A stretch of 44,277 bases of DNA from a virus: positions 1 to 44,277 of IMG/VR virus record IMGVR_UViG_3300013136_000846; one strand, 5' to 3'. A program made the translations under genes and the position numbers. A model generated the notes under the pieces. The model saw nothing but the letters and a program-made list of their open reading frames with translations. It ran no database searches and had not been told where the DNA came from. Positions 3,741 through 43,159 of the stretch are shown here, in pieces; the first letter of the stretch is position 1; each line of letters opens with the position of its first letter.

Positions 3741-3758
3741 GATTATTTAATAACATAA

Positions 3759-4394: not shown

Positions 4395-4411
4395 TATCAA
4401 ATAAAAACTAT

Positions 4412-5272: not shown

Positions 5273-5321
5273 TTTAAACTTTAATTACCATATTTTATAT
5301 GTATAATAAAAATTTATAAGA

Positions 5322-5843: not shown

Positions 5844-5845
5844 TA

Positions 5846-7180: not shown

Positions 7181-7216
7181 AAAATAAATATATAATATAA
7201 AATAAATACATAAAAT

Positions 7217-8205: not shown

Positions 8206-8217
8206 TCAGAGTTTTTT
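8190..8217. terminator. Bidirectional intrinsic terminator
   Basis: CTCTGATTAATCAGAG (8196-8211) is a perfect 16-base palindrome flanked by A-run and T-run, placed between the convergent genes ending at 8205 and 8220. Confidence 0.88.
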
Positions 8218-8219
8218 AT

Positions 8220-16192: not shown

Positions 16193-16523
16193 AATTTTTT
16201 TTATTATTATATATGTCAAAAGATTCTATATGTTTTAATTTTTTAATTTCCTCATCTCTAATATCTTTCTGTTGTTTAGCTTTAATATTAGAAAATTTAA
16301 TCTGAGCATAATTTTCTAAACCAATATTCTTTGCTAACTTACCTATGATTTCGTGATTACTTTTTCTAAAAGTATATTCAAATTTTTTCAAAAGTAATTT
16401 AATATCATCCTCCGATAAATCTTCATGATTTTTAATTTTATTTACAAGTTCATTACCAGAATTTTTAAATCTATATTCTAACTTTTTATAGATTAAATCA
16501 TATTCATCCTTATCAAGTTTCAT
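16182..16523 (-). CDS. Hypothetical helical protein
   Basis: A 113-residue Lys-, Glu- and Asn-rich protein without a recognised domain. It contains an internal near-repeat: KKLEYRFKNSGNELVNKI (about residues 13-30) and KKFEYTFRKSNHEIIGKL (about residues 46-63), so it may have arisen by duplication of a helical unit. It overlaps the homing-endonuclease gene by 11 nt upstream and the Cys-rich gene by 11 nt downstream, so it is in the same leftward transcript. Confidence 0.6.
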   Translation of the reverse strand: MKLDKDEYDLIYKKLEYRFKNSGNELVNKIKNHEDLSEDDIKLLLKKFEYTFRKSNHEIIGKLAKNIGLENYAQIKFSNIKAKQQKDIRDEEIKKLKHIESFDIYNNKKNYGN

Positions 16524-18156
16524 ATTTTTGTTTATTTTTATATGTAAATTTTAAATTACCAGAATTATAAATTCTATAAATTTTTCTTTCCAGCATTATT
16601 TGATGCTCAGTTTTATTAGAATCATAACCTTCTTTCATTAATTTATCTTTTCTAAAATTAAATCTATATTTTCTAATACCATCAATTATATAATAATAAT
16701 TTGGTTGAGTCTTTTCAACAAATTCAAAACCTAATTTGTTATACAAATTACCTTTACTAAAACTTCTATCAGCATATGTAATTATTATTGAAGGATTATA
16801 ATTTTTAATAAAATAATTAAACAATTTACTTGCACCTCCTACAATATTAGTATTCAATTTATTACAAAATCTCAACAATTCATATTCATTTTCTTTAGTT
16901 GACTTTTTACCCATAGCAATTCTACGACTACCAAATGTCATCAAGCTAACTAATTCATTATCATAAAATAAACCAATTTTAATTTTAGAATTTATATATC
17001 CTTCAATATGATTTTTTTCAAGAAAATTTTTAACATCTTTAATATTAATGTTATTTTTAATATCACAATTTCTAGCAAAAATTTTTGTTGATATTAAACC
17101 AATTTTATTTAAAATTATAGATTTAACTATATCTTGTTTATATATCCAATCATCTTCGTAAATATGAATTAATTGTATTTCCTGTTTCTCACATTCTTCA
17201 GTTTTATTTAAATGATAATTATTTTCTTTATTTAATTCGTTATGCCAAAATAATCCATTAAATTCAAATGCTAATTTTAAATCAGGTAAATAAATATCCA
17301 ACTCATAAGGAGAAATTATATCCTTATTATTCAATTTAATTTCACCCTTATAATTCTCTAATATAAAATTAACCAATTGTATCTCTAATCCACTAACATT
17401 TTTTGATATTTCATTACACTCTGTACATAATATACTATTTGCTTTAATTCTATTCCAAAATAATTTATAATCAATAGTAAAATTATGATCTTGACCACAA
17501 TCACACTTAAATTCATACTGTCCATTTGACTTATAACCAATAAAAATATTTTTATATTTTTTTATTATTTCAGACTTATATAAACCCTTATCAAAAGAAT
17601 TTTTAAAACTCAGAAATTGATTCTCTTTCATTTTACGAGAAATTTCAATATTCTGACTTGGATACTCTACACCATACCTTTCTAAATTTGTAATTTTAGA
17701 TTTTTCAATATTTGTATAATTTTCATCACCATATTTTTCTAACTTAGTCTTTTTACCTTTTTCAAAAACTTCTTTAGATTGTTGAGGATATTCTACACCA
17801 AAATTTTTTAAACAAGTTTCTATCTTTTTATCCTTTATTATTTCAGAATTTGATACATTATTAACACCATACTTACTTAATACAGTAGACTTATTTTTTT
17901 CTTCTGAGCATTTTCTACTACAAGCATAATAGGTAGACAAGTTCTTAGTATTTAAATAATATCTATTTAATGAGATTTCTGTTTCATTTCCACAAATATC
18001 ACACTTTGCTTTTATTTTTACGCCAGATCCTGTCGGTAAATCAGACACCTTTACTGATAATACTTCATTATCGTCATTTACATTATAACCCTTATCCCTA
18101 TAATATTTAATTTGATTATTTGAAATTTTAATATTAACAAACTTAGACAAAATCAT
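16513..18156 (-). CDS. VSR/EDxHD-like homing endonuclease (Hef-type)
   Basis: A 547-residue free-standing homing endonuclease. Residues 1-85 hold a zinc module (C52-x2-C55, C79-x3-C83) related to that of the HNH enzyme at 2429-3217. Residues 95-175 hold four YG(V/D)-type repeats that probably read DNA. Next is a second zinc knuckle region (CDCGQDH; CTEC). The nuclease core shows E257, D287 in YELDIYLPDL, E298-F-N-G and W304-H305, then HIYEDDW, the arrangement of the very-short-patch-repair-like EDxHD superfamily. The final 200 residues match the C-terminal part seen in phage Hef-type proteins. It sits directly behind the truncated polymerase frame, the classic position of intercalated endonucleases at split gene 43. 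Start ATG at 18156. Confidence 0.85.
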   Translation of the reverse strand: MILSKFVNIKISNNQIKYYRDKGYNVNDDNEVLSVKVSDLPTGSGVKIKAKCDICGNETEISLNRYYLNTKNLSTYYACSRKCSEEKNKSTVLSKYGVNNVSNSEIIKDKKIETCLKNFGVEYPQQSKEVFEKGKKTKLEKYGDENYTNIEKSKITNLERYGVEYPSQNIEISRKMKENQFLSFKNSFDKGLYKSEIIKKYKNIFIGYKSNGQYEFKCDCGQDHNFTIDYKLFWNRIKANSILCTECNEISKNVSGLEIQLVNFILENYKGEIKLNNKDIISPYELDIYLPDLKLAFEFNGLFWHNELNKENNYHLNKTEECEKQEIQLIHIYEDDWIYKQDIVKSIILNKIGLISTKIFARNCDIKNNINIKDVKNFLEKNHIEGYINSKIKIGLFYDNELVSLMTFGSRRIAMGKKSTKENEYELLRFCNKLNTNIVGGASKLFNYFIKNYNPSIIITYADRSFSKGNLYNKLGFEFVEKTQPNYYYIIDGIRKYRFNFRKDKLMKEGYDSNKTEHQIMLERKIYRIYNSGNLKFTYKNKQKYET

Positions 18157-18182
18157 AACAAATTTTTAATTTATATATAAAT

Positions 18183-18209
18183 AAAAAAAGTGGTAATTTT
18201 ACCACTTTT
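18183..18209 (-). terminator. Intrinsic terminator right after the polymerase N-terminal frame
   Basis: AAGTGGTAA and TTACCACTT pair around a TT centre; on the minus strand the stem is followed by a U-run. It begins at the last base of the polymerase stop codon. This means transcription as well as translation is set to end here, before the endonuclease gene. Confidence 0.8.
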
Positions 18210-19741
18210 CACAAAGGAGTATCTTCTAATTTTTTTAACTCTTCTTTCAATTTTTCAAGTTCTTCATGTTTTTGCATCATTACTTTTTTCCATTTCTTTC
18301 TATCTGCATAAACCTCACCCATTACTTGTGTCACAACTCCCTGCTCCTTCCGAAATACAGAATCATTCAAAGTCACTATATCATCATCTTCTATCGGTAT
18401 TTGATGTCCATTAAAAATGGAATAGTTTTTTCCTTTAACTTTCTGTCCTTTATATGAATCCGCTGAAATATTAAATTGACGCATGGTTGTAGGATAAAGA
18501 GAAGCAAAATCAAAACAACAGGTCCAGGTTGCCATTCCTCTCACTGGTTCCTTAACCCATCCACCTTTAATTGATGAACCACCGCCTTCACCATATTCAT
18601 CACTTTGTTCATCTCTAACAAGAACAATATTTTTTTGATCTCTTAATTTTTCTCTTAATATACCTTCAGTTAGTGCAAGAGTTGATATTGCATCTTTAAT
18701 TTTAATTTTACCTAAGACTGCCATACTATACAGAATATCAATATATTTCATTTTTATATGAATTCTCTGAACAAGACAACTGTCAACTGCGTTATAATAA
18801 ACGAATTTTTTATAATCTTCTCTATGAAGTCTTTTTAAGTCACCTTCATAATTAATTTTTTTTACTTCTTTACCTAATATTTTTTCGGAAGCAAAATCAA
18901 GAGATAAACTTTCTTTTACTTTAACTGAGGTATCCCATTTTGAAAATAATTCCATATAGTCCACTATAACTCTATGTGCTGGCATTTCAGCATAGTTTTG
19001 CTTACCTGCTGAATTAAAATTAAAAGGAGTATTCATTTTTCTAGTAAAAGATGCAACATCAGGATCAATGCCGATTTTTCTAGCTCTTGCCACTAAAAAT
19101 ACCCAGTCGTATTCTATAAAATTCCATCCTGTAATAACAGGCATCTTAGGTACCAATTTATTAAAGAAATTATTTAATAAATCATATTCGTTTTTATACT
19201 GAATATACTTAAATGCGTAGTTAGTTTCAAATTTTTTGAAATGTAAATTGATATCAGATTCTATAGATTCTATCTGATTCTGTGATAAAGGTTCTGTACC
19301 AATTACTAATATCTTATTTTTATTAACAATAGATATTGTTTGAATTGCACTTTCAGCTAAATGAGGTTCTGGTTTTTTATCCAAAATCTCATTTTCAATA
19401 TCAACGAAGAATATATCAGGCTCGTTATAACTATAAATTTCTTCTTTTTCGTCATCAGCCAAATTATCTATAAAATCATAAATTGAATATCTATTTGGAT
19501 ATTTAGTGTATATTTCTTTTACAGCACTTCCATCCCAAGTTACATATTGTCCTGATTTTTCGCGATCATCATCACTTGTTTTAATAAACTTCGTGGGTCT
19601 TGGCCAATTTTTGTACTTTAACTTAATTTGACCAGATTTATCTATGTAAGAAATGATCAAATTATTGCTCCTATACTCTACATCCACTAACAATGTGTAA
19701 ATTATTATTTTTTTAATGCGATATTTATAGTCATTTAGCAT
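18209..19741 (-). CDS. 43: DNA polymerase, family B, T4 gp43-like, N-terminal fragment (exonuclease and motif A)
   Basis: A 510-residue protein corresponding to roughly the first half of T4 gp43 (about 900 residues). The 3'-5' proofreading exonuclease is complete: Exo I D114-x-E116, Exo II N206 and D212, Exo III Y316-x3-D320. Polymerase motif A follows (D411-F-A-S-L-Y-P, then RQFNIS). The frame closes about 100 residues later, in the coiled fingers-like helix (KKWKKVMMQKHEELEK). Motif B, motif C (YGDTDS) and the thumb are absent and found nowhere else in the window. A clean stop and a terminator follow, then an endonuclease gene. This matches the gp43A half of split polymerases in some T4-like phages, whose partner gp43B lies elsewhere. 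Alone it could proofread but not polymerise. The ATG at 19741 is clear. Confidence 0.92.
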   Translation of the reverse strand: MLNDYKYRIKKIIIYTLLVDVEYRSNNLIISYIDKSGQIKLKYKNWPRPTKFIKTSDDDREKSGQYVTWDGSAVKEIYTKYPNRYSIYDFIDNLADDEKEEIYSYNEPDIFFVDIENEILDKKPEPHLAESAIQTISIVNKNKILVIGTEPLSQNQIESIESDINLHFKKFETNYAFKYIQYKNEYDLLNNFFNKLVPKMPVITGWNFIEYDWVFLVARARKIGIDPDVASFTRKMNTPFNFNSAGKQNYAEMPAHRVIVDYMELFSKWDTSVKVKESLSLDFASEKILGKEVKKINYEGDLKRLHREDYKKFVYYNAVDSCLVQRIHIKMKYIDILYSMAVLGKIKIKDAISTLALTEGILREKLRDQKNIVLVRDEQSDEYGEGGGSSIKGGWVKEPVRGMATWTCCFDFASLYPTTMRQFNISADSYKGQKVKGKNYSIFNGHQIPIEDDDIVTLNDSVFRKEQGVVTQVMGEVYADRKKWKKVMMQKHEELEKLKEELKKLEDTPL

Positions 19742-21508: not shown

Positions 21509-22459
21509 TTAACGAGGTATAGTATTATTTCTTAAATCTTCAAAAATTGGAATTATATCCTTAAAATTATTCTCTGTTTCTTTAATTTCTTGTACATACA
21601 TATATGTACAATTATTTGAATTTACTTTTATTTCCTGATTGAAGGGTGAAATTTGATACGTAATTTTACTAAAGTGTGTATCACTTGGACCGGAAATACC
21701 TGCATTATGAAAAATATAAGTTTCTTTCCATCTTTTAATATCATCAACGGCCCAACAAAAATCTAGATCCTTATTAATTTTTAGTTTATGATTGAAGTAA
21801 ACACCGTTCCATAAAATAGACCACATGTCGGCAGTCCAAGGCTGAATAGCTCCATTTTTATTATAAATGGATAGGGTAGATATCATATGATTATAAAGAT
21901 TTTCAGCATCATATAAAACTTTATGCCAAAAATTAACATCAATATTTTTTAATAAATATTGTGCACCACCAGCGTTATCATCAATCGATTCTATATCTTT
22001 TGGCGAAACACATACAATATCACACATTTCATTAAAAAGTTGATCACCACCTTTACTTTTAATATATTGGCTACTTATGTATAGTCTGGTATCGCTTACA
22101 TGCCAAAAATCATCTTCTAACATCTCAGAGAAATCTAATTTTTTAGTAAATGCGATATCAGGATCCACTAAAAAAATAGTTTCCTTAGAATATTCTGGAT
22201 GTTCAATATAAAATTTTTTCAAAAGATGTAACCGCAATGAACTTGGATATTTCATTCCTCTACGTTCATCTTTATATAAATAAAATTTACATTTAATTTG
22301 AGGACTATTAATTATTGCTTTTAATGCTGGACTTGGATCCTGTGTTGATATTATAAATACTGCATCTTCATCATAACCATATTTCATCAAATTATTAATT
22401 AATACTAAACACTGCCACAAATAATAATTGTGATCAAAAGTTGCACACACTATCTTCAT
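21509..22459 (-). CDS. GT-A type glycosyltransferase
   Basis: A 316-residue predicted transferase. The N-terminal MKIVCATFDHNYYLWQCLVL strand-helix, the RRGMKYPSSLRLHLLKKFY segment and the IFLVDPDIAFTKKL motif (D-P-D, about residues 96-104) match GT-A nucleotide-sugar transferases. A later NAGGAQYLLKN and an HNAGISG stretch give the His usual for metal binding near the C-terminal end of such folds. It is downstream of the TIG-protein terminator on the same strand and probably has its own promoter in the AT-rich gap (ATTTATATAAAC). Sugar and acceptor unknown. Confidence 0.75.
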   Translation of the reverse strand: MKIVCATFDHNYYLWQCLVLINNLMKYGYDEDAVFIISTQDPSPALKAIINSPQIKCKFYLYKDERRGMKYPSSLRLHLLKKFYIEHPEYSKETIFLVDPDIAFTKKLDFSEMLEDDFWHVSDTRLYISSQYIKSKGGDQLFNEMCDIVCVSPKDIESIDDNAGGAQYLLKNIDVNFWHKVLYDAENLYNHMISTLSIYNKNGAIQPWTADMWSILWNGVYFNHKLKINKDLDFCWAVDDIKRWKETYIFHNAGISGPSDTHFSKITYQISPFNQEIKVNSNNCTYMYVQEIKETENNFKDIIPIFEDLRNNTIPR

Positions 22460-22554: not shown

Positions 22555-24999
22555 TTATACTATACAAGCAGTTGCGCAATCAGCAGATGGTGTGATTAAT
22601 GGCTCAGGAATAGGACCATCACCACCAGCACCACCAAAGCCAAGCATTCTAATTACCTTACCAAATAATGGACTTTCAGAATCTGAAACATAATAGTAGT
22701 CATCAGAAGAATAGCTTCCATATATTGCTGTCATTTCATAAACAGCTGGTGCGCCACAAGCTGGACAAGTATAAACCTCAACTTCATACAAATATGCAGC
22801 TGTGGTTGTAGTTGTTGTTATTGGTGCGGTAGTGGTAGTTGTAGTTCCAGGTTCTGCTGTTGTCGTTGTTGTTGTACCACCTGCTGCGGTTGTGGTAGTA
22901 GTTGTTGTACCACCTGCTGCGGTTGTGGTAGTAGTTGTTGTACCTGCTGCAGTTGTAGTGGTTGTTGTACCTGCAACTGTCGTAGTTGTAGTTGTGCTAG
23001 TTATAGGTGCAGTGATAGTAAATATTGCTTGTTGATCGGTACCAACAGGAGTTTCAATTTTAATTGTTGCTACACCATAATTACCGTATGTATCTGGTAT
23101 ATAACCTCTTATTTCAGTATCTGAAATATAACTTTGTGAATCTAATAAATAATATGAACCTGCAATATAGATACTGGCATCAGTAAAATACTTTGCAAAT
23201 GAGGTTCCACTCATAGTTACTAATGTACCTTGTGGTCCTGATATTGGTGTAAAAGATAGAATGCTAGGATATGATGTTGGTGCAGAATAAATTTCGAAAG
23301 GTGTATAAGTATATGTACCATTAGTACCAGTTGCATACACGTTTACAAGTTTATTTTGACCTGCATTTACAAGTCCTGAAGGTATAGTTGTTACTAAATG
23401 TGTATCACTTATTGTAGTAGTTGTTGTACCTGAGCCAGAATATGATGTACCAAATGTAATTGTACTACCACTTAATACTGTACCATAAACATGAACAGTG
23501 TCTCCTGCTTTACCATAAACAGGCGAAACTGATGTTATAGTGGGTGTTGATCCAGATGGAGTAATCACAAATCCTGATTTAGTATAACTACCAGAAGTGT
23601 TAATAATTTTAACATCTACTGTTCCTGTTGGTGAAGATGCTGCAATTTGAGTTTTTACAAGAATTGTTGTTGCATCAGCACTAACAAGAGCTGCAACATT
23701 ACCATAATAAACAAGATTTCCACTTCCAACTTTAAAATTACTTCCGTTTAAGTTTACAGGTCTTCCTCTATATGCCGAAGTAGGATTAAAACTTGTTATT
23801 ATTGGCCCTGAGCCTGTTTGAGAGATAGTATAATCAAAAGGTGTAGATGAACCATATTGATTATTAACCACCACAGAATTAACACCAGGTACTAAATTAC
23901 TACTTAAATATACAGAAAGAGTTGCTGATTCTTGTGAAAGTATAGTAGCCACTTCATTACTAAATGAAATAGAAACTGTTCCATTAAAATTAGTACCAGT
24001 TACCGTAACTGTTTGACCAATAGTGGCACCCGTTGATAAAATTGAATAAACAGCTGGAAGTAAGCCAGCAGTTGAACCTGAAATTGTAAATCCAGACAAT
24101 GATAAATTTTGAACTCTAATATTTGTATCGCCGAGTGGAGTACCAGTTGCAATTTTTGCTGTTATATATGCTGGTGTAACTACTGTAATATCAGTTGCTG
24201 GTGTACTACCAAATCGAACCTGTATTTGTCCTTGCCTAAAGTTAGTTCCTGATATAGCAATTGTATCACCAATATATCCATAAGTTGGAAAAAATCCAGT
24301 AAATGTAGGATTATTATCTGAAACAAGATACTCAATTGGTGGTGAGCTTTTACCATAAGGTGTTTCTAAATATACTATGGTGTATCCAGTTGCCATAGAT
24401 GGTACCACTGCTGATAAAACTGTTGAACTTGTTGCACTTGTTTCACCAGTAGTAGCATTAAACCATGTGATAGTACTGCCTGGTACAAAGTTGTATCCAC
24501 CTATGGTTATAGTAGAACCAATAGATGCACTTGCAGGTATTATTGGTGGAACTATAACAGGTTTTATATCTCTATAATTAATTGTATAGCTAGAAGAGTT
24601 ACTTACACCATATGATGTAGTTACAACAACTGAAACTGATCCTAAATTATTAGGTACTACAACAGTTAATTGACCTGTTGATAAAACATTTACTGTTGTA
24701 CCAGATGCACTACCAAATGTTACTATGGTAGAGCCGTTAATAAAATTGGTACCGTTAATTGTTATTGTATCACCTACGAAGGAACTTCCAGCAGGAGATA
24801 TGCTGGTAATAGTTGGTGCTGAACCAGTTCCACTTAATACATAAAATACTGTACCATCATCATCAATTATCCAGAGACCTTGACCATCTCCACCTACGGT
24901 GGTATCGTCATAACCTAAATAAACATAACCTTTCTCTGGTAATTCAATTAGATTTTTAACTTGTTCTTTTTTTATCTTTTGAATTTTAATATAGCTCAT
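22555..24999 (-). CDS. Surface-type protein with seven IPT/TIG repeats and a Thr-rich stalk
   Basis: An 814-residue protein. Residues 1-60 form a unique N-terminal head (GYVYLGYDDTTVGGDGQGLW) of the kind found on phage fibre or decoration proteins. Seven immunoglobulin-like IPT/TIG repeats follow, each opening with a P-x-I-x-S-x-x-P, G-D-T-I-x-I-x-G-T-N-F type pattern. A stalk of six to seven TTTTTT-AAGG/AAG blocks (about residues 665-735) comes next, then a C-terminal domain with a CPACGAP knuckle and a Gly-rich end. There is no signal peptide or LPXTG/T9SS tail, so a virion adhesin fits better than a host-exported protein. The gene is 36 nt downstream of the TibC-like glycosyltransferase, and the Thr stalk is a plausible O-glycosylation target. 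I prefer ATG 24999 over a TTG at 25005. Confidence 0.85.
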   Translation of the reverse strand: MSYIKIQKIKKEQVKNLIELPEKGYVYLGYDDTTVGGDGQGLWIIDDDGTVFYVLSGTGSAPTITSISPAGSSFVGDTITINGTNFINGSTIVTFGSASGTTVNVLSTGQLTVVVPNNLGSVSVVVTTSYGVSNSSSYTINYRDIKPVIVPPIIPASASIGSTITIGGYNFVPGSTITWFNATTGETSATSSTVLSAVVPSMATGYTIVYLETPYGKSSPPIEYLVSDNNPTFTGFFPTYGYIGDTIAISGTNFRQGQIQVRFGSTPATDITVVTPAYITAKIATGTPLGDTNIRVQNLSLSGFTISGSTAGLLPAVYSILSTGATIGQTVTVTGTNFNGTVSISFSNEVATILSQESATLSVYLSSNLVPGVNSVVVNNQYGSSTPFDYTISQTGSGPIITSFNPTSAYRGRPVNLNGSNFKVGSGNLVYYGNVAALVSADATTILVKTQIAASSPTGTVDVKIINTSGSYTKSGFVITPSGSTPTITSVSPVYGKAGDTVHVYGTVLSGSTITFGTSYSGSGTTTTTISDTHLVTTIPSGLVNAGQNKLVNVYATGTNGTYTYTPFEIYSAPTSYPSILSFTPISGPQGTLVTMSGTSFAKYFTDASIYIAGSYYLLDSQSYISDTEIRGYIPDTYGNYGVATIKIETPVGTDQQAIFTITAPITSTTTTTTVAGTTTTTTAAGTTTTTTTAAGGTTTTTTTAAGGTTTTTTAEPGTTTTTTAPITTTTTTAAYLYEVEVYTCPACGAPAVYEMTAIYGSYSSDDYYYVSDSESPLFGKVIRMLGFGGAGGDGPIPEPLITPSADCATACIV
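22869..22944. repeat. 33-nt perfect tandem repeat in the Thr-rich stalk
   Basis: A 33-nt unit starts at 22869, 22902 and 22935; the first two copies are identical and the third matches for 10 nt, then diverges. It encodes the 11-residue TTTTTTTAAGG unit. Related, less exact units extend the repeat region to about 22800-23000. In-frame copy change would alter stalk length. Confidence 0.85.
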
Positions 25000-25035: not shown

Positions 25036-27498
25036 TTATAATTCAAATTCCATATCCAAAATCTTATCTTTTTCGTAAAAAGATAATAATATTTTATCTG
25101 TTTCTTTATGGAGTTCAGTTTTTGGTATGCACCATAATGTATATTGTTTACTTAGTTTAAAATCTGCTAATGTATGATATATTTTATTTGAGTCTGGATT
25201 TTTAATATCAACGTTAATTGCTGGTGTATCTTGTTCATTACTATAGTTTAACAAAATTTTGTTTTCTTCTTTGTTATAATAAACTTTAATATCATCACCA
25301 TTTAATTTAATTGATATGTTATATTTGTTAAAATCAAATAGAATTTTATTCTCAACTAATTTTGAACTTAAAATTCTATTTACCACCATTTCTGGTGTTA
25401 TATTGATAGAGCATTCAAATTGTCTTTCTGTATCCTTATGTTCTGGACACCAATTCCAATCACCTCTATCGAATGCATATTTATTGAAGCAACCATTACA
25501 TACATTAAAATTGTGTACATTGATATTATCATTTTGAAATTCGCAAATAGGATTTGAGAAACCAGAAATCATAACCACCTTTTTACCTATTGCCCAAGCG
25601 AGCCAACTTAAGCCAGAACCAACACCTATAAAAAATTCGCTGTGTTTAATTTCATTAATTCTATGTTCGATTGGAAAGTCACCAGTTTTATCAATAACAT
25701 TTTGTAAATTAGTTTTCTGTTTACTTATAATCATCACTTTATATCCTTGAGCATTTAACCAATCAACTAATATTTGCCATCCCTTATTACTATCTTTGCA
25801 AGGATAATGCCAATGTTTAGTATTTGCGGTTGAAAATTGTGCTATACAAACATATTTTTCTTTTAATGGTCTTACGCCTTCTGGAATTCTTAATTGAGGT
25901 CTAATTTCTTTGTATTCCAATCCCAATATATCACTCGCAGTTTTTTGCATTGGTTGCTTTTTATAATCATAAGGATTTTTATTTATATCCATCGGTTGAT
26001 ACCAACCAATGGTATATTTAGCATAAATATCTGGATTATTATAGCCAGGTTCTACAAATGTAATATCTTTATATTGATCTCTAAAAAAATCATTTCGGAA
26101 TGTAGAAAGATAAACTTTACAATTATGTTTTTTCCTGAACTCCTCTGCATAAGGTGTCCAAGCTAAAGTATCACCAATTGATTTACTATCTAATTGAATT
26201 AAGACATCTTTATCTCTAAGATCGAAATTATGTGTTAATAACAGTGTATTTTCATGTTTAATATTGATTTTATATTCTTTATAATATTTTGCGTTAGTTG
26301 CACACCAAGTATTTGCAGCTAACTCAGTTTTGTATATTAAATCATTAGTATTTTTATCCAATATCTCAACACCAAATTTTAATTTAGTTGTACCTAAAAC
26401 CTCTATTCTAGCACCATCTGTGAAATTTATATTATACTCCAAATATTCAGGTTCATATCTATTAGTATCACCTAATACATTTTTATATTCATCTATTAAT
26501 AAACTACCAAAAGTCTTATTATCATCCTTTCTTTTTATATTAAAATGATCAAGAATCATTTGAGCATCATTATCAACATCCATACTCAAATATTTAACAT
26601 TTTTATATGAATCATACATGTTGATATATGTTGGTAAATTGTTTAAATAAACCGGTAAATCATATGAAGTTGCTTCTTTTATTGCTAGTGGATTAAGTTC
26701 TAAAATTGAAGGATGAACTAATAAATCAGATGCCTGATAGAATAATTCTACATCCTCACGTTCACCATAAATAAAACAGTTATCCAGTTTTTTTTCCATT
26801 ATTGGTTTCCAATAATCAGAAAAATTATCAGCCTGATTTCCAACAAAATGAAAATGTATCTTATAATCGTATAATTTTTTTGCAATATCAAAAAGATACC
26901 CTTGATTTTTATCTCTTGTAAATAATCCGACATTTAAAACATGAAAGTATTCAGGATCCAGATTAAGATGCTTGATAGATTGACTTTTGTTTTTTTCTAA
27001 TTTTTCAGTAGGATATTCAACTACAGAATAGGGTATTCCAAATTTACTATATTCCTGAGCAGAATAAGGTGATACAAAGATAAATTTATCTGGAAAATAT
27101 TTTTTATCATTAACATTAAAAGTTGAAGTATGTGTAGTTTCAACTATTTTATATTTTCTAGCATCTCTATATAACCATTGAATATGCTCTTCTCGCATTC
27201 CAAATATAAATTTTTCAGGAATTTCTTCCATATGTATTATATCTGGATTAATCTTTTCAACAATTTCTATAAATTTATCTCTAATTTCTTCATTATCACC
27301 CCAAACATTTCCAAGTGAAATAAATTTATCACCTAATAATTTTATTATTTTATTTCTTTGAACAACAAAGCTCCAAGCGATTTGTCTGTATTCTATCAAA
27401 TATACATCATTATCTTTTATTAAAGATTCTATTCTTTTTAGTGCAACAGAAGGTTGCCCTCCAGTTGATAAATGAGGACAAATTAGTAAAATTTTCAT
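25036..27498 (-). CDS. Fused GT4 glycosyltransferase and TibC/Aah-like O-heptosyltransferase
   Basis: An 820-residue two-enzyme chain. Residues 1-330 are a GT4-type GT-B transferase: ICPHLSTGGQPSVALKR at the N-terminus, LNVGLFTRDKNQGYL, FIYGEREDVELFYQASDLLVHPS and the E-x7-E motif ELNPLAIKEA. Residues 370-790 match the autotransporter strand-loop-strand O-heptosyltransferase family (TibC, Aah): SIGDTLAWTPYAEEF, a KHNCKVYLSTFRNDFF strand, QKTASDILGLEYKEIRP, and FFIGVGSGLSWLAWAIGKKV. The iron-finger cysteines are also present: CNGC, then WNWCPEHK and RQFEC. TibC-type enzymes move heptose from ADP-heptose onto Ser of autotransporter passenger domains. The gene ends 36 nt before the TIG/Thr-rich gene on the same strand, so the two probably work as enzyme and substrate. 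Confidence 0.88.
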   Translation of the reverse strand: MKILLICPHLSTGGQPSVALKRIESLIKDNDVYLIEYRQIAWSFVVQRNKIIKLLGDKFISLGNVWGDNEEIRDKFIEIVEKINPDIIHMEEIPEKFIFGMREEHIQWLYRDARKYKIVETTHTSTFNVNDKKYFPDKFIFVSPYSAQEYSKFGIPYSVVEYPTEKLEKNKSQSIKHLNLDPEYFHVLNVGLFTRDKNQGYLFDIAKKLYDYKIHFHFVGNQADNFSDYWKPIMEKKLDNCFIYGEREDVELFYQASDLLVHPSILELNPLAIKEATSYDLPVYLNNLPTYINMYDSYKNVKYLSMDVDNDAQMILDHFNIKRKDDNKTFGSLLIDEYKNVLGDTNRYEPEYLEYNINFTDGARIEVLGTTKLKFGVEILDKNTNDLIYKTELAANTWCATNAKYYKEYKINIKHENTLLLTHNFDLRDKDVLIQLDSKSIGDTLAWTPYAEEFRKKHNCKVYLSTFRNDFFRDQYKDITFVEPGYNNPDIYAKYTIGWYQPMDINKNPYDYKKQPMQKTASDILGLEYKEIRPQLRIPEGVRPLKEKYVCIAQFSTANTKHWHYPCKDSNKGWQILVDWLNAQGYKVMIISKQKTNLQNVIDKTGDFPIEHRINEIKHSEFFIGVGSGLSWLAWAIGKKVVMISGFSNPICEFQNDNINVHNFNVCNGCFNKYAFDRGDWNWCPEHKDTERQFECSINITPEMVVNRILSSKLVENKILFDFNKYNISIKLNGDDIKVYYNKEENKILLNYSNEQDTPAINVDIKNPDSNKIYHTLADFKLSKQYTLWCIPKTELHKETDKILLSFYEKDKILDMEFEL

Positions 27499-27517: not shown

Positions 27518-28285
27518 TTATTTTTCTTTATTTTCATGTATTTTTTCTTTACCAATAAGTTTATATTTTTTATATTTTTTAGAATTAAAAAAATTATCAC
27601 TACATCCTAAATATTCTTTAACATTTTTCTTTGTTTCAATATTTAATATTTCACCTTTGGGGTCTTCTATAAAATATCTCATAGATATTGCATTATTTAT
27701 ACCAGTATTTTTACCTTTTCTTATTTCACTCCAATGTTTTTTAGTTTCTTCTGAATGTTTTTTTCCATAATATGGATGATTTTCACCGTTTCTATTTAAT
27801 TTTTTTGCAGCATCTTTAAGTTTTTTTATTGTTTCTTTTGATTTATTTTTACCAGGATTTTCATCACCTTTCCATTTCTTCCTAAGAACATCTTTTTGTT
27901 CATCTGACATCTTTTGTGATTTTCGTTTTTCCTTTATTATTTTTTTTGATTCTTCTGTATGATGTTTACCAAACCAAGGATGATTTTCACCCCTCATTAT
28001 TCTATATGTTTTACCACCTTCACAAATATTATATGCAATTTTTCTATTTGTAGCATTAAGTTCTTTAATCCAAAAAATTTCTCTTTCATCCATTTGATTT
28101 TCATCGGTACAATATTCTAATATTTCTTTTTTAAAATTTTCTTTACCATATTTTTTTATTGCTGATATAATAAGCTTTCCAGAACCAAAATATTTATCAT
28201 CATTTTTAATATCCTGTCCAATATAAAATTTATTATTAATAAGATTTGTGATTTTATAAATTACCATAATGTTTTTTATTTGCAT
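27518..28285 (-). CDS. GIY-YIG homing endonuclease with NUMOD3 repeats
   Basis: A 255-residue Seg-type endonuclease. The GIY-YIG core is VIYKITNLINNKFYIGQD near the N-terminus, with K-I-T, the Y-I-G strand and the downstream E in the EREIFWIKEL helix. Residues 90-190 contain NUMOD3-type DNA-binding repeats (ENHPWFGKHHTEESKKIIKEK; ENHPYYGKKHSEETKKHW; KNKSKETIKKL). The C-terminal part (KNVKEYLGCSDNFFNSKKYK) resembles an IENR/NUMOD1-like helix-turn-helix. The ATG at 28285 or at 28267 (MVIYKI) could be used; the second places the core at the usual N-terminal position. It is inserted between the sulfotransferase and the heptosyltransferase, so it may be a recent arrival. An AT-rich 170-nt gap lies upstream. 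Confidence 0.9.
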   Translation of the reverse strand: MQIKNIMVIYKITNLINNKFYIGQDIKNDDKYFGSGKLIISAIKKYGKENFKKEILEYCTDENQMDEREIFWIKELNATNRKIAYNICEGGKTYRIMRGENHPWFGKHHTEESKKIIKEKRKSQKMSDEQKDVLRKKWKGDENPGKNKSKETIKKLKDAAKKLNRNGENHPYYGKKHSEETKKHWSEIRKGKNTGINNAISMRYFIEDPKGEILNIETKKNVKEYLGCSDNFFNSKKYKKYKLIGKEKIHENKEK

Positions 28286-28455: not shown

Positions 28456-29166
28456 TTAGATAAGTGTAATTTTTCTTTGAAATGGATATTCGAAAACTTT
28501 CCAAAGCCAGTTCTTCAGTTCATCATCAATAACAATTTTACTATTTATTTTTTTAGATTCATTTAGTTTTTTTAGATTAAAATCAACATTATATCTATTT
28601 CTTATAAATTCTTCAAATTTGTCTAATTCTGTTATATCAAATTCATAAGTGCATTTTTGATTAGATTTATAATAATTTTGTGAAGAAAGTGCTTTTACAG
28701 AAATATATTTAACAGATTTTTTTTTTATTTCTTCAATATCTTCTTTTACAAATTTTGAATAACAATAAATTTTATCATCGATATCATCTGAATATAATTT
28801 ATTCGAAAAATCAATATCAAAATTCTGATAAATAAAATCATTACTCAAATCTTCAAAATTAACGATTGATGTAAAACCATCTTTAGCAACACATGTAAAC
28901 ATATACTGAAATGCACTAAGTAATCTTTTTAACCAATCTCTTGAAATACAGATAGTTTCTTTATATCCAAAATATTTATAAAGATATTCTATTGTGGAAT
29001 GTAAATGTGCAGAATATCTACTATCCTTAGACTCTATCTCTAATAATTTATCATGATTACCAGCGTATTTTATATCTAAATCTGATGAAAATAAAGCTGA
29101 TTCAATAGAGTAGCTAGCACATCTTGGAACAGATAACCAAATCAAGTCATTATTGATTAAAATCAT
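28456..29166 (-). CDS. Sulfotransferase-like protein
   Basis: A 236-residue predicted PAPS-dependent sulfotransferase. The 5'-phosphosulfate loop is VPRCASYSIESAL (P14-R-C-A-S-Y-S20), the PKCASTSI-like pattern of carbohydrate sulfotransferases. The 3'-phosphate-binding stretch is ISRDWLKRLLSAF (R76-D77, R81, S84), close to the VRDP-x2-R-x3-S-x-Y consensus. Length is near the lower end for the family. The start ATG at 29166 lies inside the APS kinase gene (17-nt overlap), so the pair is translationally linked and the kinase can feed PAPS directly to this enzyme. The acceptor is probably a glycan or a protein on the cell surface or virion; not identifiable from sequence. Confidence 0.82.
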   Translation of the reverse strand: MILINNDLIWLSVPRCASYSIESALFSSDLDIKYAGNHDKLLEIESKDSRYSAHLHSTIEYLYKYFGYKETICISRDWLKRLLSAFQYMFTCVAKDGFTSIVNFEDLSNDFIYQNFDIDFSNKLYSDDIDDKIYCYSKFVKEDIEEIKKKSVKYISVKALSSQNYYKSNQKCTYEFDITELDKFEEFIRNRYNVDFNLKKLNESKKINSKIVIDDELKNWLWKVFEYPFQRKITLI

Positions 29167-29602
29167 TATTTTTCAATGATTTTTTTAAAATTTCAAAAGA
29201 TTCTTCGACTGTTTTATTAGTTGTATCTAAATCTATAAAATTATCTAAGGGCTTCTCGTAATTTTTAACAAAAAAGTTTTCTTTTCCTCTAAGATCAGAT
29301 GTATGCACATAAATTTCAATAAAATCAATATTAGTCAATTTTAATCTAAGTCTATCTCTTAAATCTCTAAAAGGAGAAACCATTGTTATTATGACATTAA
29401 TATTTTTTTTACTTAGAAAGTATGCTATATCATGCGCTCTTTCTATATTAATTCTTCTACCACTTTCACTATAATCATTGTTATCAAATATAAGTCTTAG
29501 GTCATCACCATCAATATGTATAACATTCTTCATACTTGAGGCTAATAATCCACCAATAGAAGTTTTTCCTGAGCCTGGTTGGCCTGTAAATAAATAAATC
29601 AT
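29150..29602 (-). CDS. cysC: Adenylylsulfate (APS) kinase
   Basis: A 150-residue enzyme expected to phosphorylate APS to PAPS, the sulfate donor for sulfotransferases. Motifs, in order, are the P-loop G7-Q-P-G-S-G-K-T14; HIDGDDLR (D31); DYSESGRRINIERAHDIAYFL, the APS-binding helix; VSPFRDLRDRLR (S76-P-F-R); FIEIYVHT and FVKNYEKPLDNFIDLDTT. These match CysC through its length. It is shorter than cellular CysC (about 180-200), losing some loop length, but no key motif is missing. No ATP sulfurylase is present in the window, so it depends on host APS. The 17-nt overlap with the downstream sulfotransferase is a strong functional hint. Confidence 0.88.
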   Translation of the reverse strand: MIYLFTGQPGSGKTSIGGLLASSMKNVIHIDGDDLRLIFDNNDYSESGRRINIERAHDIAYFLSKKNINVIITMVSPFRDLRDRLRLKLTNIDFIEIYVHTSDLRGKENFFVKNYEKPLDNFIDLDTTNKTVEESFEILKKSLKNNDFNQ

Positions 29603-35130: not shown

Positions 35131-36099
35131 ATGAAAATATTAATAACAGGTGGTGCAGGGTATCTTGGCTCTATTATCACACGAAAAATGCTAGAAGAAG
35201 GGCATAATGTAACTGTTCTAGATAATTTATTATTCAATCAAATATCAGCACTAGAATTTACATCAAATAAAAATTATAATTTTATTTATGGTGATGTCAG
35301 AAATGAAAAGTTACTGATAGATGAGATACAAAAACATGATGTAATAATTCCATTAGCTGCAATTGTCGGGTTCCCAGCTTGCGCAAATAATCCAAATTTA
35401 GCTTGGGAAATTAATTATAGACAAATAACAAATATAATACAATCTATTAGTAAAAATCAATTGATACTTTTTCCAAACACAAACAGTGGCTATGGTGTAG
35501 GTGAAGAAAATACTGAATGCACAGAAGAATCTCCTTTAACTCCAATCTCGGTTTATGGCGAAACTAAAGTTGCCGCTGAGAATGTGTTAAGAGAAAATAC
35601 TTCTGCTATTTGCTTTAGACTAGCAACAGTCTTTGGAACATCATTAAGAATGAGAACAGATTTATTGGTTAATGAATTTGTCTATAAAGCTATGACAGAT
35701 AAATATATTGTAGTATTTGAAAAAGATTTCAAAAGAAATTTTATACATATTCAAGATGTTGGTAGTGTATTTGCATATTCGTTAGAAAATTATAATATAA
35801 TGAAAAACAATTCATATAATGTTGGCTTAAGTGATGCTAACCTATCAAAAGATGAATTATTAGATATTATAAAAAAATATATTCCAGATTTTGCTATAAA
35901 TTATTCAACATTTTACAAAGATCCTGACAAAAGAAATTATATTGTCTCTAATAAAAAAATAGAGGCAACAGGCTGGAAACCAAAGTATAATTTAGATGAT
36001 GGTATTTTAGAATTAATGAAAACCTATAGGATCATAATTCCAAAGATGTCATCTGAGTTTAGAAATGGGTTTCCTCTTGGCTACACAAATCCAACATAA
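35131..36099 (+). CDS. NAD-dependent sugar epimerase/dehydratase
   Basis: A 322-residue extended short-chain dehydrogenase. The G-x2-G-x2-G loop is GGAGYLG (residues 7-13), the NDP-sugar pocket opens at PLAAIVGFPACANNP, and the catalytic Y-x3-K is in ISVYGETKVAAE. RNFIHIQDVG and YNVGLSDANLSKDEL are typical of this family. The closest match by eye is to GalE/GDP-mannose dehydratase-like enzymes of polysaccharide clusters, without specific product. It is first in a rightward operon: the RmlC-like gene follows after 5 nt. Confidence 0.85.
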   Translation: MKILITGGAGYLGSIITRKMLEEGHNVTVLDNLLFNQISALEFTSNKNYNFIYGDVRNEKLLIDEIQKHDVIIPLAAIVGFPACANNPNLAWEINYRQITNIIQSISKNQLILFPNTNSGYGVGEENTECTEESPLTPISVYGETKVAAENVLRENTSAICFRLATVFGTSLRMRTDLLVNEFVYKAMTDKYIVVFEKDFKRNFIHIQDVGSVFAYSLENYNIMKNNSYNVGLSDANLSKDELLDIIKKYIPDFAINYSTFYKDPDKRNYIVSNKKIEATGWKPKYNLDDGILELMKTYRIIIPKMSSEFRNGFPLGYTNPT

Positions 36100-36104
36100 A
36101 AGTT

Positions 36105-36647
36105 ATGAACAAATGGAACGATTTTCAAGAAAAACCATCTAAAAATTTTGGCTACAATGTTATAACATACATACCATCTATATTTAGGGAATTTAGAGGT
36201 GAAATATTTACGACCTTTCATTCAGAAGAGCACCCTGTAATGAAGCAAATACATTATGATAAAAGTGAGATTAGCATTCACGGAAGATTTTCCAGATCAT
36301 ATAAAGGAGTATTAAGAGGATTACATTATGATGATAAAACATGGAAGTTAGTACAAGCAGTTGTTGGTGAAATATATTTAGTAGTATTAGATGTTAGAAA
36401 TAGTTCACCAACCTATGGAATCTGGGAATCTTTCATTCTATCAGAAAGAGATAGAAATCAAGTTTTAGTTCCACCAGGATTTGCAAACGGTCACTATGCA
36501 TTAACAGATTGTATATTTCATTACAATCTATTTTATAAAGATGAATATGTAGATACTGATGCACAAGGAGTTATAAAATGGAATGATTCTAGATTTAATA
36601 TGGAGTGGCCGACTACCAATCCAATATTACAAAAAAGAGATATATAA
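36105..36647 (+). CDS. RmlC-like NDP-sugar 3,5-epimerase
   Basis: A 180-residue cupin-fold epimerase. The family signature is GVLRGLHYDDKTWKLVQAVVGEIYLVVLDVR, with catalytic H74, followed by PTYGIWESFILSERDRNQVLVPPGFANGHYAL and a GVIKWND-x-RFNMEWP C-terminus, as in RfbC/RmlC. The expected reaction is epimerisation at C3 and/or C5 of a 4-keto-6-deoxy NDP-hexose. Length matches the family. With the epimerase before it and the RmlD-like and PseB-like enzymes elsewhere in the window, it fits a deoxy-sugar pathway. The stop at 36647 is followed after one base by the TPP-protein ATG. Confidence 0.88.
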   Translation: MNKWNDFQEKPSKNFGYNVITYIPSIFREFRGEIFTTFHSEEHPVMKQIHYDKSEISIHGRFSRSYKGVLRGLHYDDKTWKLVQAVVGEIYLVVLDVRNSSPTYGIWESFILSERDRNQVLVPPGFANGHYALTDCIFHYNLFYKDEYVDTDAQGVIKWNDSRFNMEWPTTNPILQKRDI

Positions 36648-36648
36648 T

Positions 36649-37281
36649 ATGATTAAAAATTTAGAACAATACCCTATAGTAAAAGAAGCAAATTATACAA
36701 AAGATGAATTAATTACTTTTGAGAATAAAATGGTTAGCTATTGGGAGACAGGAAAGATTAAAGGTCCAATACATTTAAGTAACGGAAATGAAGATGAATT
36801 AATAGAAATAAGTAAAAGAATAAAACACAGTGATTGGGTTTTTTCAACTTGGAGATCACACTATCACGCTTTAATTAAAGGTATTTCTCCTGACTGGCTA
36901 GAAAATGAAATTCTAAAAGGTCATTCCATAACTATTGTAAATAAAGAAAAAAAATTTTATTCAACTGCAATTGTTAGTTCTTCAATTGCTATCGCTGTTG
37001 GAGTGGCATTGTCAAATAAAAGAGAAAAAAATGATGATATAGTATGGTGTTTTATTGGAGATATGGCATTTGAAACTGGTAATTTTTATGAAATGCATAA
37101 ATATGCTATCAATTTTAACTTACCAATTCGATTTGTAGTAGAAGATAATGGAGTATCAACAAATACACCAACAATTGAAACTTGGGGTGGAATTAAAAGA
37201 GATATACCAAGTGATGTTATTTGGTATGATTATAAAAATAAATGGCCGCATTACGGAACAGGAAAATGGGTGACTTTTTAA
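36649..37281 (+). CDS. E1alpha/transketolase-like TPP-binding protein
   Basis: A 210-residue protein matching the TPP-binding half of 2-oxoacid dehydrogenase E1alpha. An STWRSHYHALIKGIS region (R69, H71, H73) resembles the YRxH segment. The TPP/Mg motif is G137-D138-M-A-F-E-T-G-N ending at E166-D167-N168 by position, i.e. GD(x)nN. It is shorter than cellular E1alpha (about 330-360) and there is no E1beta partner nearby. The C-terminal GTGKWVTF looks like a natural end rather than a break. Short TPP proteins occur in glycan clusters, where they may build unusual sugar side chains; that is inference. ATG 36649 is used, not an upstream alternative. The last 16 nt overlap the next gene. Confidence 0.75.
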   Translation: MIKNLEQYPIVKEANYTKDELITFENKMVSYWETGKIKGPIHLSNGNEDELIEISKRIKHSDWVFSTWRSHYHALIKGISPDWLENEILKGHSITIVNKEKKFYSTAIVSSSIAIAVGVALSNKREKNDDIVWCFIGDMAFETGNFYEMHKYAINFNLPIRFVVEDNGVSTNTPTIETWGGIKRDIPSDVIWYDYKNKWPHYGTGKWVTF

Positions 37282-39254
37282 ATTTTGTTTATGATGACTG
37301 GAAACTAGACAAAAATGAGCCAAATCCAAATGGTGAAAAATATTTTTTTACAAAAGAAAATTCCTGGGCAGTCGGTGATCATGTAATGAGAACATTCAAC
37401 TATAATAATTATAAAAATTATAGAATTGAAGAAGTTGAAAAAAATCCAGATAAAAATTTTTATTATATAATGTGGAATAGGGAAATAAGATGGTTGTCCA
37501 TCGATAATAACATATTACCTATTAGTGATTATGTAATTAAATTAATAAAAAACAATAAAAATTTAAGAGTAATCTTTATAAATGAGCAAGAAGCAGAAAA
37601 TAAAAATAGCTTAATTCAATTAGAGAAAATTCTTAAAATTTATGATATAGATCCTAAACAATTTTGGCTCATTAGTAATAGTAGTAAAATGTTAGATCAT
37701 AAAAATGAATTAAATAGTGAAATTAATATTCATATAACTAGGGCAACAGGATACGCATTAAAACAGCATATGATAGATTTAGACTTTATAACAAAAAAAG
37801 AGAATATTTTCTTATGTCATAATAGATCACCAAAATCACACAGATATGGCGTTTTATGTTTACTAAAAAAATATAATATAATTGATTATACAGATTGGTC
37901 TATGATTAATCATTCAGATAATGTTCGATACTTTGAAGTTTTTACAGATTATGATATAAATTTATTACAAACAGAAATAAATTATTTTAATCAAATAAAA
38001 AGACAAAAAAGTAAATATGAAACTGAATATGATTGGTTTGATGATGAAAATAATATAAAATGGGGCGAAATCTACAATAAAAAAACTTTTGAAAATTCAT
38101 ATTTTAATATTGTCACAGAAACATTCTTCGATTCACCAGAGATTCATATAACAGAAAAGTCATTTAAACCATTCTGTGCTTATCAATTTCCATTAATATT
38201 AGCATCCAAACATCATATCAAAAAATTTAAAGAAATATATGATTTTGACTTTTTTGATGACGTAATTAATCATGATTATGATAATATTAGTAATCATAGA
38301 GATAGATTATTTAAATTTGTTGAAGAAGTAAAAAGAATTCAGGAAAATAAAGATTTTTTTATTACTTTCTATAATAATAATCAAAAAAGATTTGAAGAAA
38401 ATTTCAATAAAATGAAAAATATGAATCTTAATTATGATCATGATTTTTTTGATAGTTTAATAAATTGGCAAATTGAAAAAACAATAATTCAACCAACCAC
38501 TACAATTGAGCCAACTACAATTGAGTCAAGCACAGCAATCAAACTAAAAAATCAACAATTCATTAATAAAGAACCAGATATAGAAATAACTTTAGATTCT
38601 GGAATACATTTAATTTATCCGTCACAATTGGATGGTGGAGGTTCTTCTGCAAGATTTGATTTCATAGATATATTACAAAAAGATTTAAAAAAGAAATATA
38701 AGCACGCATATGAGTGGTGTTCTGGATTTGGTATTATTGGTTTTGATATGTTAGGAAACAATATATGCGAAAATATACATTTTAGTGATATACTTCCTTT
38801 AGCAATTGAAAACTGCTTATATAATGCAAAAAATAACAATGTTTCAGATAAAGTGTTTGGATATATAAGTGATAATGTAAAGTCATTACCAGTTGAACAT
38901 TTATTTGATTTAGTCGTCGGAAATGGACCATGTAATTTTAATCTAGAAGAATATACAAAATCTAGGTTAGAATATGAAAATAAAACATCTACAAATGAGA
39001 TACTAAAATGGAATATTGACGTGAGAATGGGAGTTGATGATAATTGTAAAATTCATATAGAATTTTTTGATAACATAACCAGTAAGATAACAGAAGATGC
39101 TGACATTCTATTAATTGTAAATAATAATCGTACTGACAAACTAATGTCAGCTGCTACCAAAAATGGATTTGAATTAATTCATAGATATCCAACTATACAT
39201 TTTTGTGGTGGAGGTGAGATTTATCATTTTAAATTAAAACAAAACTATGAATAA
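37266..39254 (+). CDS. Tandem-family glycosyltransferase-like protein fused to a methyltransferase
   Basis: A 662-residue protein, first of three tandem relatives. Residues 1-400 form the family module: FLNFVYDDWKLDKNEPNPNGEK at the start, SNSSKMLDHKNELNSEIN midway, then NSYFNIVTET, IHITEKSFKPF, QFPLILASKHHI and YDFDFFDDVINHDYD, a pattern like the acceptor-side motif of GT10-like transferases (xTEKx-x2-x, YD-x-I). After a Thr/Pro-rich linker (about residues 405-425) a class I methyltransferase follows: EWCSGFGIIGFDML, SDILPLAIENC and VVGNGPCNF (NPPY-like). Start ATG 37266 is chosen because the other two copies begin at the same point; it overlaps the E1alpha gene by 16 nt. Function inferred, sugar unknown. 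Confidence 0.7.
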   Translation: MGDFLNFVYDDWKLDKNEPNPNGEKYFFTKENSWAVGDHVMRTFNYNNYKNYRIEEVEKNPDKNFYYIMWNREIRWLSIDNNILPISDYVIKLIKNNKNLRVIFINEQEAENKNSLIQLEKILKIYDIDPKQFWLISNSSKMLDHKNELNSEINIHITRATGYALKQHMIDLDFITKKENIFLCHNRSPKSHRYGVLCLLKKYNIIDYTDWSMINHSDNVRYFEVFTDYDINLLQTEINYFNQIKRQKSKYETEYDWFDDENNIKWGEIYNKKTFENSYFNIVTETFFDSPEIHITEKSFKPFCAYQFPLILASKHHIKKFKEIYDFDFFDDVINHDYDNISNHRDRLFKFVEEVKRIQENKDFFITFYNNNQKRFEENFNKMKNMNLNYDHDFFDSLINWQIEKTIIQPTTTIEPTTIESSTAIKLKNQQFINKEPDIEITLDSGIHLIYPSQLDGGGSSARFDFIDILQKDLKKKYKHAYEWCSGFGIIGFDMLGNNICENIHFSDILPLAIENCLYNAKNNNVSDKVFGYISDNVKSLPVEHLFDLVVGNGPCNFNLEEYTKSRLEYENKTSTNEILKWNIDVRMGVDDNCKIHIEFFDNITSKITEDADILLIVNNNRTDKLMSAATKNGFELIHRYPTIHFCGGGEIYHFKLKQNYE

Positions 39255-40482: not shown

Positions 40483-40491
40483 GCAGCTATA

Positions 40492-40499
40492 TATAAATA
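40492..40499 (+). promoter_or_regulatory. T4 late-promoter-like box TATAAATA
   Basis: A perfect TATAAATA lies 18 nt before the ATG at 40517 in the 34-nt gap between two tandem genes. T4-like phages use this as the late promoter. In so AT-rich a genome a chance match is possible, and 18 nt is close to the start. Confidence 0.35.
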
Positions 40500-40516
40500 A
40501 AAACTAAAATTTGTAT

Positions 40517-43114: not shown

Positions 43115-43159
43115 CTTTTAATATTTTTTATTATATAATAAAAAAACTATATTCAAAAT

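Follow-up and report, generated by a model that had tools for sequence, protein, structure and literature searches.

The 44,277-base IMG/VR virus record IMGVR_UViG_3300013136_000846, analysed over its whole length and referred to below as the window, encodes on its minus strand an 820-residue protein, P0001, in which a GT4 glycosyltransferase domain is fused to an O-heptosyltransferase-type domain of the Aah/TibC family. Family membership and fusion are both firm, and P0001 represents a variant of a known family of enzymes that is encoded, unexpectedly, by a phage. Its gene is firmly linked to that of a protein with seven TIG domains, and a relation of enzyme and acceptor appears, from sequence and gene order, to be the best explanation of this pairing. 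The findings suggest that large environmental phages of this type glycosylate their own attachment proteins. A first-pass annotation had read the two genes as a dedicated virion-glycosylation system; its observation is confirmed, and its interpretation is partly supported. No phage TibC-type enzyme was found in the literature searched, with preprints and most subscription papers lying outside the reach of that search. The two genes and their parts are:

25036..27498, minus: P0001, GT4–TibC fusion protein, 820 residues, ATG start (open reading frame and translation)
26518..27498, minus: GT4 (GT-B) domain, residues 1–327 (Glycos_transf_1 and fold)
25363..26451, minus: TibC-type O-heptosyltransferase domain without beta-hairpin thumb, residues 350–712 (TIGR04414 and fold match)
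25411..25500, minus: iron-finger segment with Cys667, 670, 684, and 696 (TibC alignment; kept across phage clusters)
25039..25362, minus: beta-rich C-terminal extension, residues 713–820, no family found (strands in model)
22555..24999, minus: seven-TIG-domain protein, candidate acceptor and virion adhesin, ATG at 24999 (PF01833, NF058597)
22795..23010, minus: Thr-rich stalk within the TIG protein, not a conserved feature of the clade

Family Membership and Fold of P0001

The plus strand over 25036–27498 is riddled with stop codons, and the coding strand is the minus strand. P0001 and its neighbours recur, at 100% protein identity to the window, on a virus contig of 93,722 b, termed here the sister contig. 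From N- to C-terminus, the protein consists of the GT4 domain, a linker, the TibC-type domain, and a beta-rich extension; in an AlphaFold2 model built from 22 sequences (mean pLDDT 86.1), the linker at about residues 328–349 is of low confidence.

Residues 357–709 reach 323.6 bits with the Aah/TibC model TIGR04414 (cut-off 200) and P0001 just 17.5 bits with the model for lipopolysaccharide (LPS) heptosyltransferase I, while Pfam TibC_1st stays below threshold (22.2, cut-off 27) and Pfam GT9 barely passes (22.5, cut-off 22). The TibC chains 4rb4 and 4rap of the PDB are matched at E values of 3e-60 and 1e-59, and the model superimposes on TibC with a Z-score of 37.4 and a root-mean-square deviation (rmsd) of 2.3–2.4 over 353 residues. 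The specificity of TIGR04414 was controlled on 200 bacterial genomes of one order, in which four frames of 408–414 residues from three genomes scored above the cut-off (271.7 to 636.4 bits); among the matches listed below it, a TibC fragment reached 80.8 bits and the rest at most 46.5 bits. Since these sub-cut-off matches lie at or below 80.8 bits, the domain of P0001 is not a generic GT9, and an assignment to generic GT9 or LPS heptosyltransferases is ruled out by its TIGR04414 score together with the control scan. A single-sequence scan of bacterial genomes returned one partial relative. The assignment of the C-terminal part to the Aah/TibC family in the first-pass annotation is thus borne out, except that the last ~108 of the 420 residues given to this domain lie outside it. 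These form the beta-rich extension, which was suspected by eye to be a second copy of the TibC barrel, a suspicion left unsupported (E 0.061 over 11 residues); extensions of 104–109 residues occur in clade members L001, L002, L010, and L023.

The proposed N-terminal GT4 fusion likewise stands. Glycos_transf_1 matches residues 173–291 with 44.1 bits (cut-off 26.4), the domain carries an EX7E motif (E267–E275), and its model shows a GT-B fold that best matches HepE of Anabaena (4xsu, Z 23.7 over residues 1–322).

Active Site, Iron Finger, and Assembly

In TibC, according to the available sections of the study describing it (PMC4358343), Asp110 is the catalytic base and Thr226, Lys230, Arg286, and Trp305 bind the donor. 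By alignment, these residues correspond, respectively, to Asp443, Thr557, Lys561, Arg613, and Trp632 of P0001, and the stereoselectivity residue Pro300 of TibC corresponds to Gly627, at which a GSGLSWLAWA block begins. The iron-finger cysteines noted in the first-pass annotation are present as Cys667, 670, 684, and 696.

Relatives were collected in two scans, between which contigs recur. The first gave 80 loci, 10 of which were dropped before clustering since fewer than 250 TibC-domain residues could be aligned, leaving 38 clusters. The second, a profile scan of IMG/VR viral contigs, found at least 599 TibC relatives among 600 stretches; 79 of the 80 stretches kept from it carry GT4 and TibC in one frame, and they form 47 clusters at 80% identity. 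Asp443, Lys561, Cys667, Cys670, and Cys684 are identical in all 38 cluster sequences of the first scan and Cys696 in 37, with one gap. In the second set (P0001 and 47 cluster representatives, n=48, some contigs being shared with the first scan), Asp443, Lys561, and Trp632 occur in 48 sequences and Thr557 in 47. The scan patterns included Lys561 and Cys684 in the first scan and Cys684 and Trp632 in the second, so that conservation at these positions is partly selected.

One signature is missing. TibC possesses a beta-hairpin thumb whose hydrophobic tip, Phe265/Val266, joins dimers into a dodecamer, and tip mutants are inactive dimers (PMC4358343, available sections). At this place P0001 has a 9-residue gap relative to TibC, the segment comprising 45 residues, and its model shows no hairpin strands at residues 591–609, only a two-residue bridge. 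The thumb-region segment is 43–45 residues long in 32 of the 48 phage sequences, against 54 counted for TibC. The "full set" of TibC signatures claimed earlier therefore holds for the active-site residues, the iron-finger cysteines, and the GSGLSWLAWA block but does not extend to the thumb, and the thumb that forms the dodecamer interface, for which a structure prediction had been suggested, is absent from alignment and model alike. Because the thumb is missing, P0001 is expected to assemble differently from TibC; it probably works as an iron-finger dimer or in another assembly, not as a thumb-linked dodecamer.

Linkage to a TIG-Domain Protein

The TIG gene lies 36 nucleotides downstream of the P0001 stop codon on the same strand, as the first-pass annotation had stated, and starts with an ATG at 24999. 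Its product matches PF01833 in seven stretches (117.3 bits) and NF058597 with 70.5 bits (cut-off 30). A search of relatives for conserved pairing, proposed at the outset as a check, found the two genes linked in both directions. Each of the 13 full-length relatives from the first scan (66–100% identical) has a TIG gene downstream of the enzyme; in L002 it is truncated where the contig ends, and in L023 a gap of ~250 nucleotides with an open reading frame of 72 residues intervenes. Conversely, a reverse scan with a profile of five TIG proteins found 13 relatives, all on the same 13 contigs as GT4–TibC. A scan for the TIG anchor elsewhere in the same phages gave matches in 8 of 12 contigs, at one place each, with the exception of one extra weak match whose frame holds a stop. 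The TIG proteins have no hydrophobic N-terminus, in keeping with cytoplasmic assembly of a phage protein.

Neighbours of the Enzyme in the Wider Phage Family

In more distant phage relatives, the enzyme gene often lies next to a Gly/Ser/Thr-rich gene of tail-fibre-like character. A downstream gene of at least 150 residues with a Ser+Thr fraction of at least 0.30 was found in 10 of 37 clusters, as opposed to none of 37 upstream and 14 of 256 genes farther away; on permutation within loci, this was equalled in 26 of 20,000 trials, in a test that compares genes within loci and treats related loci that are not independent. Several of these downstream neighbours are Gly/Ser/Thr repeat proteins, and the first 405 residues of one of them resemble sequences in 17 phage records, tail fibre being a frequent annotation among these.

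Wider control loci were sought with PhoH and epimerase queries, which returned only the sister contig; distant segments of the same contigs, chosen by position only, were therefore used as controls. Gly/Ser/Thr-rich windows occurred at 17 of 20 TibC loci and in 7 of 20 distant segments, and 17 of the 20 locus–segment pairs favour the TibC locus, 3 are ties, and none points the opposite way. The single such window of L020 is fragile, as it was not found on a whole-locus scan, and those of L011 start at the very edge of that locus, not near the TIG gene.

TibC-type matches were present in 4 of 50,697 phage records, two of 735,411 b, one of 636,363 b, and that of Microcystis phage Mel-JY01.

Possible Supply of ADP-Heptose

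The search for heptose genes covered the records of 50 of the 80 loci; an HldC-type match was found in 8 of them (1 above cut-off) and a GmhA-type match in 3 (none above). Gene linkage is a stronger point for donor supply than these record counts. At L019, GT4–TibC stands in a row with cupin, HldC-like, and HldA-like genes; at L077, the row reads TibC, cupin, APS-kinase-like, HldD-like, HldA-like; at L063, it reads GT4, TibC, HldC-like; and at L022 a heptose-synthesis-like set lies nearby on the opposite strand. The heptose-like genes scanned from L019, L022, and L063 score best on heptose models and fall below the curated cut-offs, and those of L077 were assigned by similarity to them. Within the window's clade, the contig of L023 carries an HldC gene above cut-off (201–202 bits), and G002–G005 carry GmhA-like genes at 202–208 bits (cut-off 209.45), in each case far from the enzyme.

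Proposed Mechanism and Alternatives

During infection, the TibC-type domain would transfer heptose from ADP-heptose to Ser/Thr residues of newly made, cytoplasmic TIG protein. The donor would be made by the host here and perhaps by phage enzymes in some relatives. The fused GT4 domain would add the next sugar; products of APS-kinase-like and possible sulfotransferase genes, and perhaps a carbamoyltransferase, might then decorate the glycan, and the glycosylated TIG protein would be incorporated into the virion to serve as adhesin or decoration. Taken as a whole, inferred steps included, the account of a phage Aah/TibC-family protein glycosyltransferase acting on a virion TIG adhesin is considered moderately probable.

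A number of observations weigh against it. The 13 contigs with the gene pair amount to 4 clusters at 80% TibC-domain identity, so that the independent evidence is smaller than the number 13. The TIG protein matches neither any of the phage records nor any PHROG family. In the published test, according to the available sections of PMC4358343, TibC modified Ser, not Thr; the Ser/Thr-rich stalk to which the first-pass annotation had drawn attention does exist in the window's TIG protein, but, of five TIG types read over their full length, three lack it (a poly-Thr stalk is present in the window type and L023, a single Thr run in L005, and none in L003 or L011). Should the TIG protein be the acceptor, the TIG region (residues 61–655, with 82 Ser and 94 Thr) would be preferred over the stalk as the candidate site. 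Lowering the Ser+Thr threshold to 0.25 weakens the neighbour signal (14 of 37 clusters versus 8.1 expected; 213 of 20,000 permutations), the corresponding figures at 0.22 being 16 of 37 and 272 of 20,000, and L003 and L005, both members of the window's clade, contain no Gly/Ser/Thr-rich stretch and account for two of the three ties, so that this clade itself contributes little to the signal. With regard to the donor, the sister contig yielded no HldC or GmhA match, which is why the host is taken as the source of the donor. HldA-like genes were detected in 31 phage records, those of cyanophages and marine viruses, as compared with TibC-type matches in only 4; such genes are not special to TibC phages, and heptose genes as an exclusive mark of such phages are ruled out. 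Finally, the adenine-contacting Arg613 is kept in the window's clade but in just 5 of the 38 phage clusters, which means that the donor may differ among phages; in this comparison a frame was obtained for two of three bacterial loci, L135 having been lost to the motif filter.

The main rival explanation holds that the enzyme modifies the host surface, LPS or host adhesins, and thereby excludes competing phages, its proximity to an adhesin gene resulting only from the tendency of phages to collect genes of this sort in their hypervariable tail-fibre region. For pelagimyophages, the glycosyltransferases and rfaE found among the tail-fibre genes have been read in this way (PMC7029224, available sections), and the wide occurrence of HldA-like genes relative to TibC-type ones would fit it as well. 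This explanation is nevertheless regarded as unlikely: in the published case, proteins are the substrates of the TibC type (PMC4358343, available sections), the TIG pairing holds in both scan directions, and the TIG protein lacks a hydrophobic N-terminus that could direct export. An equally unlikely variant accepts that virion proteins are glycosylated but places the main acceptor in another structural protein, making the TIG neighbour incidental. Outside the clade, the neighbours are indeed other tail-fibre-like proteins, and no TIG match is present in G008 or G009; within it, TIG protein and enzyme stay together through a TIG-protein divergence of 42–55%.

For the TibC-type domain, a donor other than ADP-heptose seems rather improbable. 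The absence of the adenine-contacting Arg from 33 of 38 phage clusters and the small number of records with heptose genes (8 of 50 and 3 of 50) speak for such a donor, whereas the window's clade keeps that Arg together with the Thr, Lys, and Trp, and several relatives show linkage of the enzyme with heptose-synthesis-like genes. A phage DNA-glucosylating enzyme was also considered, the GT4 half resembling AGT of bacteriophage T4 (1xv5, Z 19.6) among many GT-B enzymes; yet numerous other enzymes of the GT4 type rank above AGT, and the TibC half is of a kind that modifies proteins (PMC4358343, available sections), which renders this idea highly improbable.

Returning to glycosylation of the TIG protein, a broader proposal can be made only tentatively and falls short of being probable: large environmental phages might possess a dedicated glycoprotein-adhesin pathway in which a GT4–heptosyltransferase builds an O-heptose-linked glycan on a co-encoded adhesin, in some lineages with a phage-borne ADP-heptose supply and sulfation. 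If true, TibC-type enzymes would belong to phages no less than to bacteria, the glycosylation of bacterial autotransporters and of phage adhesins may have a common origin, and glycosyltransferases of tail-fibre regions would be read as makers of glycoprotein adhesins in addition to modifiers of host LPS or phage DNA. Glycosylation of virions has been established for only a small number of phages, and a concrete candidate pair of enzyme and acceptor is now at hand to test.

Comparison with Known Systems

The closest known system is that of the bacterial enzymes TibC and Aah (BAHT family; TIGR04414; 4rap, 4rb4), which, according to the available sections of PMC4358343, combine an N-terminal barrel with a GT-B catalytic domain. 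P0001 shares this architecture, the catalytic Asp, the donor-binding Thr, Lys, Arg, and Trp, and all four iron-finger cysteines, and its gene adjoins a putative adhesin gene. In contrast to TibC and Aah, it is phage-carried, fused behind a GT4 domain, extended at the C-terminus, and devoid of the thumb, and its linked partner is a TIG protein rather than an autotransporter passenger domain. Phages are unmentioned in the available sections of PMC4358343.

Glycans on phage proteins are known from mycobacteriophage virions (cited in PMC12619734); there, other enzymes act on capsid and tail-tube targets, and the available sections make no mention of a TibC type. Pelagimyophages resemble the present case in carrying glycan and heptose genes (glycosyltransferases, rfaE) in the tail-fibre region of a large phage; they differ in that these genes were read as modifying the host O-chain, with GT8 most represented and no TibC type mentioned in the available sections of PMC7029224.

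For one isolate that carries such a gene, Microcystis phage Mel-JY01 (PP395634.1), the complete genome is on record, which makes the idea testable on real particles. Its open reading frame 4750–8430, annotated as methyltransferase FkbM, encodes an N-terminal GT4 and a C-terminal TibC-type domain and adjoins a gene annotated 'structural protein'. Unlike P0001, it comprises 1226 residues, with extra sequence between the domains, and the product of the adjoining gene has no Pfam match and is not a TIG protein. No paper on Mel-JY01 was found in the literature searched. As a side observation, its gene at 739–2298 (minus; locus L128), annotated 'hypothetical protein', encodes a Pro/Val/Glu/Leu-rich product with 4% Ser+Thr and resembles what a Gly/Ser/Thr-repeat fibre gene would give when read antisense; possibly the wrong strand was annotated.

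Neighbouring Genes in the Window

The genes surrounding the pair are:

21509..22459, minus: P0008, phrog_4417 protein (219.8 bits), function unassigned; next gene in most of the clade
27518..28285, minus: GIY-YIG homing-type endonuclease (TIGR01453 61.1 bits, NUMOD3), between P0003 and P0001
28456..29166, minus: P0003, possible sulfotransferase (motifs by eye; model pLDDT 73.9)
29150..29602, minus: P0004, APS-kinase-like P-loop kinase (Pfam and PDB APS kinases), overlapping P0003
29634..30407, minus: P0005, SGNH-esterase-like by eye only, no family match; a 59% homologue lies beside TibC in L116
30937..32574, minus: carbamoyltransferase, possible glycan decoration (Carbam_trans_C 206.6, Carbam_trans_N 187.2 bits)

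Sulfation of the glycan is a hypothesis derived from P0003 and P0004, whose genes lie upstream of that of P0001. The model of P0003 has sulfotransferases in its first 11 structural rows (Z 4.6–5.1, rmsd ~7), with a guanylate kinase tied at 4.5; P0003 has no Pfam sulfotransferase match, its best Foldseek E value is 0.7, and a search of its sequence against the PDB gave nothing meaningful (best E 0.039, an unrelated protein). P0004 scores 56.4 bits with APS_kinase (cut-off 21.1) and 32.2 with Zeta_toxin (cut-off 22.3) and stays below every NCBIfam cut-off, equivalog ones included, which makes APS a putative substrate. A pair of the P0003/P0004 type immediately precedes GT4–TibC in L002, and homologues of P0003, P0004, and P0005 surround a stand-alone TibC gene in L116, which comes from a 335-kb contig. 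APS-kinase-like homologues occur at 6 of 38 cluster loci (L001, L002, L020, L021, L027, and L077) and also in L022, L113, and L116, three loci included by hand or through P0003. A sulfotransferase-like fragment in L022 was discarded as a P0003 homologue, there being no significant similarity. The carbamoyltransferase gene is confined to L001 among 42 loci.

A DPD motif seen by eye suggests that P0008 may be a glycosyltransferase; it has no match in Pfam or the PDB. Its family, phrog_4417, is present in 72 phage records, many of them of Lactobacillus and Enterococcus phages, and in some lies near the major tail protein gene. The GIY-YIG gene has a 72% homologue at the same place in L003 and none there in L002. 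Another gene of the homing-endonuclease type (phrog_3339, 404 bits) is found within 16513–19741 (minus), immediately 3′ of a family B DNA polymerase gene; the latter matches positions 13–503 of an 856-position profile, and the polymerase may be split. Elsewhere in the window, a sugar cluster at 35131–44101 (plus) contains two nucleotide-sugar epimerase/dehydratase genes, an RmlC-like epimerase gene, and an E1-dehydrogenase-alpha-like gene, and a UDP-GlcNAc 4,6-dehydratase-like gene at 9904–10851 (minus; PseB 163.6 bits, cut-off 407.75) lies beside methyltransferase genes. The glycan cluster of L116, on its 335-kb phage contig, further includes three small genes at 3006–4676 (plus) that by eye resemble 2-oxoglutarate dioxygenases, and a radical-SAM-like gene at 6352–7404.

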